Shown here: piece after piece, positions 5,240-11,628 of the stretch
Position numbering within the stretch: position 1 is the stretch's first letter
Layout of the letters: each line of letters starts with the position of its first letter
Made by a program: the position numbers and the translations under genes
Notes under the pieces: generated by a model
What the model saw: only the letters and a program-made list of their open reading frames with translations
Database searches by the model: none
What the model was told of the DNA's origin: nothing
Assembly: GCF_027484545.1 (NCBI RefSeq)
Contig: NZ_JAIXST010000304.1
Coordinates: 33,331 to 97,330 of the forward strand
Length of the DNA stretch: 64,000 nt
Direction: 5' to 3'
From: Runella sp.
GTDB lineage: Bacteria; Bacteroidota; Bacteroidia; Cytophagales; Spirosomataceae

Positions 5240-6624
5240 ATGATTATGAAAGTAAACCATTTTCTCGCAAGCACAGTCGCCATAGTCCTTGTACTTTTGG
5301 TCGGTTGTAATGAATCTACCGATACGCCCACGCCTTCGTCGGCTACGGTTTCGGCGTTAACATGTTCGTCAGCTACGTATTCAGGAACACCTGCGGCCGG
5401 AACAGCTTTTACGGGTACGGCCACCGTGCCTTACACGGGTGGGAATGCAGTGGCCTATTCGGCCGGTTCGGCCATTTCTTCCACGGGTGTGACAGGATTG
5501 ACCGCTACGTTGGCCGCAGGAACGTTGGCTTCGGGCGCTGGCTCGGTGACGTATCCCATCACGGGAACACCTTCGGCCGCCGGAACGGCCTCTTTTGCCA
5601 TTTCTCTGGGAGGGCAGAGTTGTACACTTTCGTTGACCGTCAGTGCGGCCGCTACCTCTACGGGCGGAACGGCTTGGGCCTTTGATACGGATATTGCCAA
5701 CATCGTGGCTACGGCCGATGCATTTAAAGCAACGCTTTCTTCTACACAGCTAACTTCCCTGCAAGACTCGTACAACAAAGCCCACGCACAGAAGTGGTCC
5801 AATTTGCCCGAAGGGTTATACAAAGGCAGAGTAGGGTTGCAATCCACTACTTTCAGTACTGCTCAATGGACGGCTTTCTATAATTTGCTGAAAGCGGCTA
5901 CGGGGTCAGGAGCAGACGAAGGAAATGCAGAATACGTAGGCATTTTGGCGGCTGACGATTACTTGAATTCTATCGGCGGTGGTTCAGACTATGGCTCAGG
6001 CAACTACTACATTGCGTTTATTGGCACACCAAGTGCTACGGGATTGTGGTGTTTGCAAATCGGCGGTCACCACGGAACCATCATTCAAACGTACAATGGC
6101 GGAAAAATGACGGGGGTTCCTTCCGTTCTACAGAACCCTTCCCAAGTTTTGCATGGAAAACCGTTACTTATCAACCTATTGTACAGGAATTGAATACCCT
6201 TTCGGCGATGCTGAAAGGGCTGGGTTCGACCGAACTCACCACTGCCAAGCGTTCGGCGGCTCAAAATGATTTGATTGTAGGGCCACAAAAAGACGGCAGT
6301 TTCCCAACGACAAAAACAGGAGTAAAAGTAGGAAATCTGACATCAACTCAGAAGGACTTGGTATTGGCGGCCATTAAAACGTATACCGACGATCTGGACA
6401 ATAAAGCGTCGGCTGCGGCGTATGCCAAGTACAAATCAGAAATTGATGAAACCTACATTTCGTATTATGGCACTACAGCACTTACCGAAAAAGGGGATTA
6501 TGTCTTGATTGATGGACCGAGTGTATGGATTGAGTTTTCGATGCAAGGCGGTATTATTGTGAAAAATGCCAATCACCCGCACTCCGTTTGGAGAGACAGA
6601 AAAGCCGATTATGGTGGAAATTAA
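5240..6624 (+). pseudogene. DUF3500 lipoprotein with N-terminal Ig-like domain, frameshifted
   Basis: ORFs 5240-6193 and 6046-6624 are two halves of one gene. The N-terminus is a lipoprotein signal (LVLLVGC). A Gly/Thr/Ala-rich Ig-like domain follows (about 35-140), then DUF3500. The frame breaks near 6118. Compared with the paralogue at 8.1-9.1 kb (GATPSFRG), about 7 nt encoding part of T-P-S are missing, after which SFRSTEP resumes in the other frame. The conserved family features IGGHH and HPHSVWRDRKADYGGN are present but fall in different frames. The downstream HupE/UreJ gene starts inside its tail, so the two are probably cotranscribed. ATG 5246 is an alternative start. Confidence 0.8.
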
Positions 6625-7915
6625 CGGCCCCCTAACCCGCGCGGCGGACCGTCCCGAAGGGGGAACTGCGCTCTTTAGAGCATGTTTCAGACTCTTTTGG
6701 CTATGCCTGTTTTTACTCCCCCTTTGGGGGCAGGGGGGGCTGTTTGCGCATCCGATGCCCAACTCCATGGTAATACTGAATGTGCACGAAAAGTCCATTT
6801 CGGGCGAAATCATGCTGCCGCTGGGAGAACTGCAATCGGCTATCGGGATGAGCGTTAATGACCGTTCGGAACGATTGGTAGAACGACTGGGCGATGCCCT
6901 TCGGATGTATCTGAAGCAGCACATTCGTCCCCGCAGTTTTGAAGGAAAACCGTGGATGGTGACGTTGGGTGAAATGAAAGTCATTGAAACCAAAAACGAA
7001 CTGACGGGCGATTACAAAGAATTGATTGTTCGGTTTGAAATGACCCCGCCGGAACACTACGACCTTCGGAATTTCTACTTTGATTACGACGTAATTTTGC
7101 ATCAGGTAGCGAGTCATAAAGTGCTGGTAAACGTTCGACAGGATTGGGAACGGGGCTTGGTGAGCGAAGATACCACCACGCAACAAGTGGGAGTCATCGA
7201 ATGGGATATTGTGCAGGGAAAACTGAATCCTTTTCAGGTGAGTTTACAGCAGGGCAGCACTTGGAAAGGCTTCCAAAACATGGTATCGTTGGGGATTTCG
7301 CACATTGCCGCAGGAACCGATCATATTCTTTTTTTGCTGACTTTGCTGTTGGGAGCAATACAGCCCCCCATCCCGTGCGGCGGTGGTGCGCCACTGCGAC
7401 CGTCCCCAAAGGGGAGTAAGAAAGGCTCCCCCTTTGGGGGTTGGGGGGCTGTACTTAAAATCGTCACTGCCTTTACCATTGGGCATTCGCTGACGCTGTT
7501 GTTAGGTTCGGTACAATGGCTGCATTTTCCTAGTAAACCGATTGAAGTATTGATTGCCGTCACTATTTTGGTGTCGGCTTTTCATGCCTTTCGCCCCTTG
7601 TACCCCAAGTGGGAAGTTTTTATTGTCGGAGGCTTTGGCCTGATTCACGGATTAGCGTTTGCCGAAACATTGACCAATTTGCAGCTTTCTGCCAAGCAGA
7701 TGATTTTGAGTATTTTAGGATTCAATGTAGGCATCGAACTGATGCAATTGTTTCTCATTTTGTTGGTGTTTCCCGTCCTGCTTTTACTTTCCAAAACACG
7801 CTATTATGTATTCGTCCGACAGGCGGGTGCCGTTGTCATGATGCTGTTGGCGTTGGCATGGATGGTAGAGCGTATTCAGGAAAAACCGAATTTTATTACT
7901 GAACTTATTTCCTGA
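6611..7915 (+). CDS. HupE/UreJ-family membrane protein carrying two repeat insertions
   Basis: Start taken at ATG 6611; the track start 6566 lies deeper in the preceding gene. An N-terminal secretion signal or first membrane helix (LFRACFRLFWLCLFLLPLW) precedes AHPMPNS, the usual mature start of this family. A periplasmic domain runs to about residue 230. The HupE/UreJ_2 membrane domain follows, with ISHIAAGTDHILFLLTLLL, TAFTIGHSLTLLLG and GLIHGLAFAE; its His residues are likely metal-related. Family members are proposed nickel/cobalt permeases or accessory proteins. Two C-rich repeats lie inside the frame: one shapes the leader, and a 95-bp one (7359-7453) inserts about 30 residues in a loop. 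The frame stays open across both. Confidence 0.83.
   Translation: MVEINGPLTRAADRPEGGTALFRACFRLFWLCLFLLPLWGQGGLFAHPMPNSMVILNVHEKSISGEIMLPLGELQSAIGMSVNDRSERLVERLGDALRMYLKQHIRPRSFEGKPWMVTLGEMKVIETKNELTGDYKELIVRFEMTPPEHYDLRNFYFDYDVILHQVASHKVLVNVRQDWERGLVSEDTTTQQVGVIEWDIVQGKLNPFQVSLQQGSTWKGFQNMVSLGISHIAAGTDHILFLLTLLLGAIQPPIPCGGGAPLRPSPKGSKKGSPFGGWGAVLKIVTAFTIGHSLTLLLGSVQWLHFPSKPIEVLIAVTILVSAFHAFRPLYPKWEVFIVGGFGLIHGLAFAETLTNLQLSAKQMILSILGFNVGIELMQLFLILLVFPVLLLLSKTRYYVFVRQAGAVVMMLLALAWMVERIQEKPNFITELIS
6625..6742. repeat. C-rich palindromic repeat inside the HupE/UreJ leader
   Basis: Arms GGCCCCCTAACCC (start) and CTCCCCCTTTGGGGGCAGG (end), with the recurring GCGGCGGACCGTC module between them. Translated here as part of the signal segment (LLPLWGQGG). 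Confidence 0.65.
7359..7453. repeat. 95-bp C-rich palindromic element inserted in frame in the HupE/UreJ gene
   Basis: Perfect 12-bp terminal inverted repeats TACAGCCCCCCA and TGGGGGGCTGTA. It contains GCGGCGG and GACCGTCC modules plus a CTCCCCCTTTGGGGG core. It is read through as coding sequence, giving ...GSPFGGWGAV... between two family-conserved membrane segments. Confidence 0.8.
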
Positions 7916-7916
7916 T

Positions 7917-8037
7917 GAACCCCACCCTAAATCCCTCCCGCTGCGGCGGACCGTCCTGTGAGGGAGGGACTTGTCAGAACTCCCTTTCCCTCACAGGGGC
8001 CGCGGCGGCGGACCGCAAGGGTTGGGGATAGGGGTTC
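7917..8037. repeat. Compound C-rich palindromic repeat, intergenic
   Basis: GAACCCC and GGGGTTC ends. Two GCGGCGGACCG modules and GGGAGGGA/TCCCTTTCCCTC arms lie inside. It occupies most of the gap between the HupE/UreJ gene and the second DUF3500 gene. Confidence 0.65.
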
Positions 8038-8078
8038 TAATAGCTAAAACTTGGCAAACCAATTAAACGATAAAAACC

Positions 8079-9143
8079 ATGAAAGCATTTGCATTTTACG
8101 GAGCAATCTTACTGCCTTTATTAGGTTTGTTTTCTTCTTAAAATGAGAACGAAATTGTGTCCCAAATCGCTCCTGTTTCAGCTGACTGCGCCAAGGAAAA
8201 AGGAACCGCAAAAGTAGTTTGTTTTGCGGAAGCCTTTAAAGCGACCCTGAATGCCGAGCAAACCGCTCAACTTCAATTGGAATATACCAAAAGCAACGCG
8301 GTGAAGTGGTCCAATTTTCCTGAATTCAGACCGACACGCGTGGGGATTCGATTGGGGCTGCTCAATCCGGCGCAATTGGCGGCGGCCAAGGCACTGATGT
8401 CGGCGGTTTTGTCGCACGAATCGGAGCAGGAAGGATTTGGGGAAATGGAAGGCAACTTAGCGGCCGATGATTTTTTCGGACAGCATACCAACAATCCGAA
8501 GCTGTTCAGTTCGGGCAATTTCTTTATCGCCTTTCTCGGAAAACCAAGTACTTCCGACCTTTGGGAGTTGCAATTCGGCGGGCATCATTATGCGTTTGCC
8601 AATACCTACAAAGGCGGAAAAATCATCGGTGCGACGCCTTCCTTCCGAGGGGTTGAACCCTCGGTATTTGAATGGAACGGCAAGAAATACCAACCGCTCG
8701 AACAGGAAAAAGACGCGTTTGCCACCCTGATTGGTTCGTTGAAGGAAGAGGAGAAAACGACGGCCAAGCTGCGTTTGTCCTTTAACAATATTCTGTTAGG
8801 CCCCAATCAGGACGGAAAGTTTCCTTTGGAAAAACAGGGTGTAAAGGTGGGGGATTTGAGCAGTGCGCAGCAAAAATGGGTGAAAAAAGCCATGGAAAGC
8901 TACGTTCGGGATTTGGATGCGGAAACGGCCGAGGAATGGATGAAAAAGTACACGGCCGAATTGCCCGAGACCTACGTAGCCTACGCAGGAAGCGGCACGA
9001 TGAACCAAGTGGGTGATTACGTTCGCATCGACGGACCGAGTATTTGGATTGAGTATTCGGCGCAGCCGAGCCGTGATATTCCCGGTACGACGCATCCGCA
9101 TTCGGTTTGGCGTGATAGGAAGAGTGATTATGGGGGGAATTAG
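8079..9143 (+). pseudogene. Secreted DUF3500 protein with an ochre codon after the signal peptide
   Basis: The track lists 8157-9143 (GTG start). In the same frame 78 bp upstream there is an ATG (8079) opening a good signal peptide, MKAFAFYGAILLPLLGLFSS, that runs directly into TAA at 8139-8141. Then the frame continues as NENEIVSQIAPV. CAA (Gln) to TAA is the simplest explanation. The body is DUF3500: KWSNFPEF, GNLAADDFFGQ, FGGHH, DGPSIWIEYSA and the terminal HPHSVWRDRKSDYGGN. Without the leader the protein would stay in the cytoplasm. It is paralogous to the 5240 gene; the two flank the HupE/UreJ gene. The family has no known function. Confidence 0.8.
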
Positions 9144-9178
9144 TGAGGAGGCTTTAGTAGGAATCCACCTATTTACAA

Positions 9179-9219
9179 ATACAAAGCCTCTTAAAAAGCT
9201 CATTTGAGAGGCTTTGTAT
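9179..9219. terminator. Hairpin terminator after the DUF3500 gene
   Basis: Perfect 13-bp stem ATACAAAGCCTCT/AGAGGCTTTGTAT, 35 bp after the stop. No long T run follows, so this may be a palindrome working in both directions. Confidence 0.55.
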
Positions 9220-9385
9220 TCAAGAAGATGTTCAATGATTTTGAGAAATATTTTGTGTATTACTTTAATAATGAGTAATTTATCTCAAAATGAATCCCTA
9301 ATTTCTTTAACTGATTTGAGGACTTCGGATACAGTTTGCGCAAAGGCTTTGGTAAACATATAAATACGACTCCATTCCTTAATTA
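9220..9385. other. AT-rich gap, no supported gene
   Basis: A 30-codon ATG frame (9271-9363, plus strand) is the only open reading frame seen. It has no recognisable homology and is not called as a gene. Base composition shifts to AT-rich here and stays so to about 11.45 kb. Confidence 0.4.
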
Positions 9386-9889
9386 TTAAAGGATAATCCT
9401 ATTCTCTATTCTTAAAACATATCCTGTATCATTAAGAAATTGTTCCATACGTCTTATCTGGCTCTCCTTAAATTTAGGATGTTCACTATTGGCTATATAT
9501 GCTTTTTTTGTTGTGTATTCTCCCGCTTCATCTGAATCCCCAAAATTGCCAATTGTAGTACGTATTTGTTTTTCAGCATCTTTTACCCATGAATTCCCTA
9601 ATGCTCCTCTTTCTTTCAATTCAATAAAAATTATAACCCTGTCATAAATCAAAACACCATCGCAACGTTTATCCATAGTTCCATCTTCTCTACTAACAGC
9701 GATACAATTATCAATTGCAGTAAATATTACATGATTTCTGTCTTCGTTCACTACAACAGCAATCCATTTACTTCCATCAGACTCATCAATATATGCAGGA
9801 TTTTTAGCTGGATGCGGATCATCACAAAGCCCGAATAATTTTCTGTTAGAATGAGTTTTACAAACTTCAACTGCTAAATTAATGCTCAT
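9386..9889 (-). CDS. PD-(D/E)xK-like protein paired with an OLD-type ATPase (candidate nuclease effector)
   Basis: 167 aa, not recognised as a named family. The segment CDGVLIYDRVIIFIELK gives Asp77-x12-Glu90-x-Lys92 on two predicted beta strands, the layout of the PD-(D/E)xK nuclease core. An upstream His/Asp-rich N-terminus and a helical C-terminus flank it. Its ATG overlaps the ATPase stop (ATGA), so it is the second gene of a tight two-gene operon. By analogy with ATPase-nuclease defence modules it may be the DNA-cutting partner. That role is an inference; a coenzyme- or RNA-binding function cannot be excluded. Codon and base use are more AT-rich than neighbours. Confidence 0.65.
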   Translation of the reverse strand: MSINLAVEVCKTHSNRKLFGLCDDPHPAKNPAYIDESDGSKWIAVVVNEDRNHVIFTAIDNCIAVSREDGTMDKRCDGVLIYDRVIIFIELKERGALGNSWVKDAEKQIRTTIGNFGDSDEAGEYTTKKAYIANSEHPKFKESQIRRMEQFLNDTGYVLRIENRIIL

Positions 9890-11136
9890 AAATTTTGTTG
9901 AATTTCCAATAATTGCGCAAATAGTTCATTCCCATCTCCAAGTCTTTCATTCAATTCGTTTTCATCTGATGGTAAACCATTATATGCTTCTAATTTTTTG
10001 ATACTTCCTTCTTTTTCATCCAATTCGTAAATAATTAAATCAATTGGCTTCACAGTTGATAATAATGGAACAATCTCATTTAATAATTTTAGATTTTTTT
10101 CCGTTTTAATCATTTCTGCCAGCATATTTGCCTTTACTGAAAGTGTTAAATAATTAATTAAATATGGACTATGTGTCGTCATAATTAATTTATTGGCTTC
10201 GTCCATATTATTAAACTCCAATAGGCTATTCAGTATTTTTTGTTGGGAAGTAGGAAATAGATTTTGTTCCGGTTCTTCAACTATATTGATAAAACATCTT
10301 TTGTTAAATCTTTTTGATATTGCAGATAACGCAACTCTTTTTTGTTCATCAGTTAGTTTGGCATCTTGAAATAAATTTGTAATTGCTTCGCTAAAACGTT
10401 TTAATTCAAAACTGCTCATAGATTCCTCCTTATCATATGTACCGCCTCTCGTCCTACTCTCGATTCTATTAGCTAAATATCTACTGACAAGGTATAGAGG
10501 AACCAATGATTGATACCCACTCGATGACTCGGTTAATCTTATTTTATAGCCTTCTCCCTTAATATTTATAATATCATTTAATTTATCATATTCTATATCT
10601 ACATTGTTAATAGGCAAACTTAAATTTCCTCTCATTTGATTTTTAGCATTATCAAATTCAGTAACAAATTCAACTAAAGATTCAGAGGAAAATTTCAAGA
10701 CGTCAGGTTTCCTTACAGTGCTTATAAAATTACGTTCTGCCGGTACATACATGATTTGAGGTAACAAATATTTCCCTGTTTTATTCTCATTAACAGTTAA
10801 ATTTCCTGCTTTATAAGCTATATGATAGGCTTCTCCCTGATATTCAATTTCTGTCTGGTAATCGCTGTTGCTGTCAGAAAAATAATTTTCAAGACGATGA
10901 TATTTACAATATACATTTTGAAATCGCTTTCGTTGGGTAAACCACTTTGAATTATAGTCTCCCCTCACTAAAGCTTTTTCAATCCAACTTAATGTTGAGA
11001 AGAGCTTTGCAATTGTGCTCTTGCCGCTTCCTTGATTGCCAATAAGTACCGTAACTTTATTAATATCAATCCATCCATCATTTTCTTGGTAACCGCCTTT
11101 TATTGGACCAAAATTTTTTATTCTAATTCTGCTCAT
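9886..11136 (-). CDS. AAA/OLD-like ATP-binding protein, first gene of a putative defence module
   Basis: 416 aa. Walker A GNQGSGKST (33-41) follows an N-terminal strand typical of RecF/OLD-like ATPases (IRIKNFGPIKGG). ABC-type signature region ESSSGYQSLVPL (about 203-214), Walker B FINIVEEPEQNLFP (272-285, with the catalytic Glu pair) and H-loop TTHSPYL (about 310-316) complete the fold. There is no TOPRIM domain at the C-terminus, unlike OLD/Gabija GajA nucleases. The nuclease function is therefore probably supplied by the overlapping downstream gene. AT-rich and next to a tRNA, which suggests horizontal acquisition. Confidence 0.82.
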   Translation of the reverse strand: MSRIRIKNFGPIKGGYQENDGWIDINKVTVLIGNQGSGKSTIAKLFSTLSWIEKALVRGDYNSKWFTQRKRFQNVYCKYHRLENYFSDSNSDYQTEIEYQGEAYHIAYKAGNLTVNENKTGKYLLPQIMYVPAERNFISTVRKPDVLKFSSESLVEFVTEFDNAKNQMRGNLSLPINNVDIEYDKLNDIINIKGEGYKIRLTESSSGYQSLVPLYLVSRYLANRIESRTRGGTYDKEESMSSFELKRFSEAITNLFQDAKLTDEQKRVALSAISKRFNKRCFINIVEEPEQNLFPTSQQKILNSLLEFNNMDEANKLIMTTHSPYLINYLTLSVKANMLAEMIKTEKNLKLLNEIVPLLSTVKPIDLIIYELDEKEGSIKKLEAYNGLPSDENELNERLGDGNELFAQLLEIQQNL

Positions 11137-11277
11137 TTTATTCTAAGAATTTTAAGACCAAAATTTGTTATAATGCTTCCCAGAATTTAGGCAGGCACAA
11201 TAAATTGGAGATTGCTGTCTAAAACAAACACAAAAATGGGAAAAACCAACATGTGAGTTTTAGTTCAGATTTTAAGA

Positions 11278-11306
11278 CAAATGTAGCGACTATCAAAGAA
11301 CAACAA
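11278..11306 (-). promoter_or_regulatory. Candidate promoter of the ATPase/nuclease operon
   Basis: Read on the minus strand: TTG (11306-11304), 18-bp spacer, TACATTTG (11285-11278). It fits the phylum consensus and would give a 5'-UTR of about 135 nt. Confidence 0.4.
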
Positions 11307-11453
11307 AATTCTAAGTTAGCTTCCAAATATGAATTGTATTGCTACAGCGAAACCTCCGACTCAAATTACTGAATGTAAAAGCAACTCTTAGCATCAGCAA
11401 GTCAGGTGTAATCTCAGCCATATTTAGCGTTTTGAAACAATAATTTGAAGATG

Positions 11454-11525
11454 TGACCTCGACGGGAATCGAACCCGTATCAAGCGTTTAGGAAACGCTT
11501 ATTCTATCCGTTGAACTACGAAGTC
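11454..11525 (-). tRNA. tRNA-Arg (anticodon CCU)
   Basis: Cloverleaf drawn by hand: acceptor GACTTCG/CGAGGTC (one G-U) with discriminator A, anticodon arm AGCGT-TTCCTAA-ACGCT giving anticodon CCT, and T arm with GTTCGATTC. 72 nt; CCA is not encoded. Confidence 0.92.
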
Positions 11526-11544
11526 TATTTTTTACATTGGTCAG

Positions 11545-11604
11545 CCGTCGTATCAAGCGTTTGGAAAATGCTTATCGGGCGGCGTTCCATTGAATTACGA
11601 AATC
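11545..11604 (-). pseudogene. Decayed tRNA copy next to tRNA-Arg
   Basis: The plus-strand stretch gtatcaagcgttt...cttat...ccattgaattacgaaatc matches the 5' two thirds of the adjacent tRNA-Arg. It has substitutions in the D arm and a rearranged anticodon loop, and the T arm and 3' acceptor strand are missing. It cannot fold as a tRNA. Either a tandem tRNA that decayed or a scar of integration. Confidence 0.7.
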
Positions 11605-11628
11605 TGAATTTGTGCAAATTTCTGAAAA

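Follow-up and report, generated by a model that had tools for sequence, protein, structure and literature searches.

A pair of overlapping genes on the minus strand of a Runella sp. genome is a real, conserved, and previously catalogued but uncharacterised ATPase-nuclease defence candidate, held in PADLOC-DB (version 2.0.0) as the candidate entry PDC-M29. The pair lies in a stretch of 64,000 nucleotides that was analysed as a whole (hereafter named the window), and it is probably a Septu-like sensor-effector module belonging to PDC-M29, in which the HNH effector has been replaced by a PD-(D/E)xK-type nuclease and which was inserted beside a tRNA-Arg hotspot. The new content relative to the catalogue is the PtuA-like assignment of the ATPase, the evidence for a PD-(D/E)xK-type effector, and an effector-swap pattern that marks the C-terminal tail of the ATPase as a probable adaptor. 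The features of the locus are as follows.

9886..11136, minus strand: gene A, a 416-aa PtuA-like ABC/AAA_15 ATPase without TOPRIM, PDC-M29A, the presumed sensor/regulator.
9386..9889, minus strand: gene B, a 167-aa PD-(D/E)xK-like putative nuclease effector, PDC-M29B, with D77, E90, and K92 and the conserved C10, C62, C76, and Q108.
9886..9889, minus strand: ATGA overlap of 4 nt between the A stop and the B start, the same or similar in nearly all relatives.
9889..10011, minus strand: residues 376-416 of A, its C-terminal tail, which is proposed to dock B on the basis of its divergence tracking B.
11278..11307, minus strand: candidate Bacteroidota-type promoter TTTG-N18-TACATTTG, a consensus match only, 142-171 nt upstream of A.
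11453..11525, minus strand: tRNA-Arg(CCT), flank of the insertion and an integration hotspot in the genus.
9144..11452, no strand: AT-rich stretch (0.31-0.33 GC) from the DUF3500 gene to tRNA-Arg, the presumed extent of the acquired segment.

The two open reading frames and their shared ATGA are present as the initial annotation had placed them, and translational coupling of A and B through this overlap is likely from the arrangement of the sequence. The annotation had also called the pair AT-rich, which agrees with its GC content of 0.315, compared with 0.450 in the window outside it; a value this low occurs in just 1 of 249 segments of equal length, and no part of the window is richer in AT than the stretch where the pair lies. 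The promoter of its own that had been ascribed to the pair finds weak support in the single Bacteroidota-type match, and sigma-70-type matches showed no excess over shuffled sequence.

Both proteins match PDC-M29 over their full length. A matched PDC-M29A (PDLC04562) with an E value of 1.8e-185 over residues 1-415, and the adjacent B matched PDC-M29B (PDLC04563) with an E value of 5.8e-62 over residues 1-166. Gene order and overlap are identical as well, and nothing tested separates the window pair from this entry. The effector had been described as unlike the HNH, TOPRIM, and UvrD partners of known systems, which holds for all three, but the pair is already catalogued as PDC-M29A/B and hence is not new. 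The PDC entries go back to a preprint by Payne et al. (2024) on 'guilt-by-embedding', cited in PMC12988326, and are putative candidates, most of them without experimental validation (PMC12988326). In the literature collection searched, there was no paper naming PDC-M29 and no experiment or published mechanism for it; another untested PADLOC candidate, PDC-M63AB, proved inactive in its native host (PMC12409345). The idea of a two-gene defence candidate composed of an ATPase and a PD-(D/E)xK-like protein is borne out by these PADLOC matches together with 51 paired loci, invariant motif residues, a nuclease-like model of B, and defence neighbours in three relatives.

The complete set of ATPase motifs noted earlier in A was recovered, comprising Walker A (GNQGSGKST), the signature (SSSGYQS), Walker B (EEPEQNLFP), and the H-loop (TTHSPY), all near-invariant in 27 homologues. 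A Pfam scan of A returned only AAA_15/AAA_21 above cut-offs, no TOPRIM domain was matched, and about 90 residues follow the H-loop before the protein stops, consistent with the claim that A has no nuclease domain. The structure model of A reached a pLDDT of 84.6, and the fold search against the PDB gave Septu PtuA 8eea as the best match (1.2e-9), with 8ee4 and 8sux also among the best matches; nearly all of the top 50 matches were PtuA proteins of Septu or retrons. At the sequence level, A matched PtuA profiles at only 1e-12, far under the NCBIfam PtuA cut-off. The first description of A as an OLD-type ATPase is only loosely right: sequence searches did bring up Pfam AAA_15 as well as the OLD structure 6P74, but its fold is closest to Septu PtuA. 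Because the best fold matches are PtuA and A is devoid of TOPRIM, A is better described as PtuA-like than as OLD-type. An AAA_15-type ATPase is common to OLD and to GajA of Gabija, but the C-terminal TOPRIM nuclease domain of OLD is absent from A, and in place of the UvrD-like GajB of Gabija the partner is the 167-aa B, which has no helicase match.

In B, the motif D77-x12-E90-x-K92 that had drawn attention to the protein was confirmed: all 49 homologues keep E90 and K92, with Asp (43) or Glu (6) at position 77. Since D/E77-x12-E90-x-K92 held in every homologue, it is not a product of chance. The AlphaFold2 model of B (pLDDT 90.5, pTM 0.88) contains a strand at 54-58, a strand at 78-82 right after D77, and a strand at 85-92 bearing E90 and K92, followed by a helix at 100-117, a strand at 127-134, and a helix at 142-155; Gln108 is kept in 45 of the 49 homologues. 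This arrangement, with the D/E-x12-E-x-K spacing on a beta hairpin and a conserved Gln in the helix that comes next, is the signature of the PD-(D/E)xK superfamily. Compared with the alpha-beta-beta-beta-alpha-beta core, the prediction has three strands, a helix, a strand, and a helix but lacks the first core helix.

In the fold search with B, PD-(D/E)xK enzymes, as judged from the hit names, made up 26 of the best 50 matches in the PDB; all were weak, with E >= 0.06 and TM of about 0.35, and none of the PDB matches reached E <= 0.001. They comprise what we take to be members of this superfamily, namely BspD6I, Cdn1, EcoT38I, MUS81-EME1, AF1548, arenavirus endonucleases, Avs4, and R2. The fold check proposed for B therefore leans to a restriction-endonuclease-like structure, with the low scores and the absent first core helix on the other side. 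The Pfam scan of B gave nothing above cut-offs and no nuclease family above noise, and no HNH or PtuB profile matched in Pfam, PADLOC, or NCBIfam. PDC-M29B was the sole PADLOC profile to match, the sequence-profile search against the PDB gave no meaningful match, and the viral-structure library gave only weak, mostly unnamed ones. Single homologues of B weakly matched the nuclease families HSDR_N_2 and NERD. Divergent PDC-M29B homologues also weakly matched HEC-02B, of the PADLOC candidate HEC-02, over the nuclease core, but the B of the window has no direct HEC-02B match.

Three cysteines of B stand out beside the motif. C76 is invariant and C10 and C62 are nearly so, a conservation close to that of the putative catalytic residues, and the three may form a zinc site or play a redox role. 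It seems quite unlikely that B is something other than a nuclease and that its conserved acidic and Lys residues and three cysteines make up a different site, such as a structural zinc site or that of another enzyme. The conservation of the cysteines, the weakness of the fold matches with the missing helix, and the empty Pfam scan would suit such a protein, but the spacing of the motif on its hairpin with the Gln-bearing helix, the share of PD-(D/E)xK enzymes among the best fold matches, and the weak HSDR_N_2, NERD, and HEC-02B matches of single homologues argue against it. With moderate confidence, B is predicted to be a divergent PD-(D/E)xK-type nuclease. The pair resembles Septu (PtuA-PtuB) as a two-gene module with a PtuA-fold ATPase upstream of a small nuclease, and differs from it in a B that has neither HNH nor PtuB similarity and carries an ExK motif of the PD-(D/E)xK type.

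Conservation of the gene neighbourhood, suggested as a check on the pair, was strict, and neither this check nor the fold check of B refuted the interpretation. B genes were detected at 51 loci across Bacteroidota, and at each of them an A gene immediately precedes B in the same orientation, the two mostly overlapping by 4 or 10 nt. In the reverse direction, every one of the 10 genomes of the class that matched A at E <= 1e-60 was also B-positive. B matched in 19 of 395 genomes drawn evenly from the class and in 29 of 396 from the phylum, none of 14 well-known control genomes had a match, and GTDB genomes yielded ten close relatives. On another contig, the genome of the window holds a second, divergent PDC-M29-like pair of 335 and 174 aa (L096:8673-10201, G000 contig C218), flanked by purH and a rhamnosidase-like gene, both named by eye.

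Some copies of the module are decaying. A stop interrupts B in L005 and an IS21-type element does so in L009, each time beside an intact A; in L026 it is A that is split, and in L081 A is short. Such copies fit a dispensable, costly function; toxicity is not thereby shown. The loss of B beside an intact A is what would be expected of a costly effector in a PARIS-like arrangement, in which A would sequester B as a ready-made toxin until a phage anti-defence protein frees it to cut host tRNA or DNA. Like A, AriA of PARIS (AriA-AriB) is an AAA_15 ATPase without TOPRIM encoded apart from its effector, and in PADLOC searches with A and with its homologues, AriA ranks among the first profiles behind PDC-M29A. 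This release mechanism is nonetheless unlikely, given that the fold search puts PtuA first rather than AriA, that AriB is a TOPRIM (TOPRIM/DUF4435) nuclease and B is not, and that A is also broken in some loci.

As to the genomic setting, hflX and tRNA-Arg(CCT) are kept together in 14 of 14 relatives examined, and the sequence following the tRNA differs among them. In none of the 14 was the pair seen after the tRNA, over a span of at most about 6 kb that contig ends shorten in two of them. In L060 a tyrosine integrase gene has one of its ends about a dozen bases or less from the tRNA, and in L058 a sequence of 83 nt adjoining the tRNA end recurs about 3 kb away, as expected of an integration hotspot, and the tRNA-Arg site is on these grounds regarded as one. 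No integrase was found with the pair in 9144..11452. An integration scar was sought and rejected, as no flanking att repeat was found other than the tRNA-like copy, which lies on the far side of the tRNA and also occurs in relatives without the pair.

The tRNA-Arg and the tRNA remnant reported beside the pair are both real, but the remnant is a feature of the lineage. In several species of the genus, the interval from hflX to tRNA-Arg, upstream of the tRNA, holds truncated tRNA-Arg(CCT)-like copies: in the window (11526-11612, with a degenerate copy at about 11549-11602) and in L062, L063, L065, L066, and L067; since similar copies occupy the same spot in several relatives without the pair, the degenerate copy is not a mark of the module. 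In L066 (1255-1630), the truncated tRNA-Arg(CCT)-like sequence forms a tandem array of an 87-nt unit with 4.3 copies and 97% matches. Elsewhere in the window, there is at least one complete DUF3500 gene (8157-9143) and a second DUF3500-like region that is broken and spread over two frames (about 5240-6624), with a gene for a HupE/UreJ_2 membrane protein between the two regions (5240-9143).

In Algoriphagus aquaeductus (L003:6774-10047), PDC-M29 adjoins a CBASS operon with HORMA, TRIP13, and NucC, while AbiE is a neighbour in L001 and methyltransferase/helicase/HNH genes in L005. Other pairs, read by eye, lie among housekeeping genes, and no further defence gene was recognised beside the window pair when its neighbours were looked over unsystematically. 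B had no match by tblastn in 50,697 phage records of INPHARED, a scan of IMG/VR for close relatives was likewise empty, and among 72,556 plasmids there was one match, in Persicobacter, at 33%; carriage of the pair by phages is accordingly unsupported. An anti-plasmid or anti-mobile-element defence, or an island addiction module, instead of an anti-phage function, would agree with a position next to a tRNA integration hotspot and with this rarity in phages and plasmids, by which the pair is no phage cargo gene in those collections. Such a role is nevertheless quite unlikely in view of the conserved ATPase-nuclease architecture common to anti-phage systems, the CBASS and AbiE neighbours in relatives, and the lack of an integrase with the pair.

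The two genes were further compared in 28 dereplicated A/B pairs of the main clade. Identity in A residues 1-340 did not track identity in B (Mantel rho 0.07, p 0.23), whereas identity in A residues 376-416 did (rho 0.58, p 0.0002), and the bootstrapped difference in rho was 0.50 (95% 0.24-0.75). The tail is the only part of A that clearly diverges in step with B. In the A(1-340) tree, L016 and L083 were grouped (100/98); in the B tree, L016 was joined to L007 (100/98) and L083 to L095 and L085 (100/99). AU tests rejected the grouping of the other gene in both directions (p 1.5e-5, 2e-7, 2e-31, and 4e-7), for groups that were picked after seeing the trees. Judged from these alignments and trees, A and B have different histories, B having evidently been exchanged between A lineages together with the end of A, and the simplest account is that recombination close to the junction of the two genes carries B along with this end. 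The C-terminal tail of A is likely a docking segment for B. Hitchhiking alone could give the tail signal, because the end of A adjoins B in the DNA; on a functional reading, the signal may reflect selection for a matching A-B interface.

These results suggest a mechanism resembling that of Septu, with a PD-(D/E)xK-type blade instead of HNH. A would dimerise or oligomerise with ATP and dock B through its C-terminal tail, holding B inactive, and a phage-derived or phage-induced signal would then alter the nucleotide state of A. B would thereupon cleave nucleic acid with a metal bound by D77, E90, and K92, aborting the infection. Septu defence requires both the ATPase and the nuclease motifs (PMC13096335), and in Septu and retron PtuAB the ATPase and nuclease are needed together, with tRNA-Tyr or, in another Septu, nicked DNA as targets (PMC13096335, PMC11555353). 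Considering these different targets, a DNA substrate for B is not to be assumed.

More tentatively, PDC-M29 could be a modular immune chassis, in which one PtuA-like sensor lineage takes different PD-(D/E)xK effectors that are swapped near the A/B junction along with a short C-terminal adaptor tail, the effector with three conserved cysteines representing a distinct branch of the superfamily; this is a possibility somewhat short of an even chance. An anonymous catalogue entry would in this way become a testable mechanism, in which a Septu-type ATPase works with another kind of nuclease and a 40-residue segment is predicted to set the choice of effector. Should this hold, sensors and effectors could be exchanged experimentally to ask of each half what it recognises and cuts, a question that concerns ATPase-nuclease immune systems.
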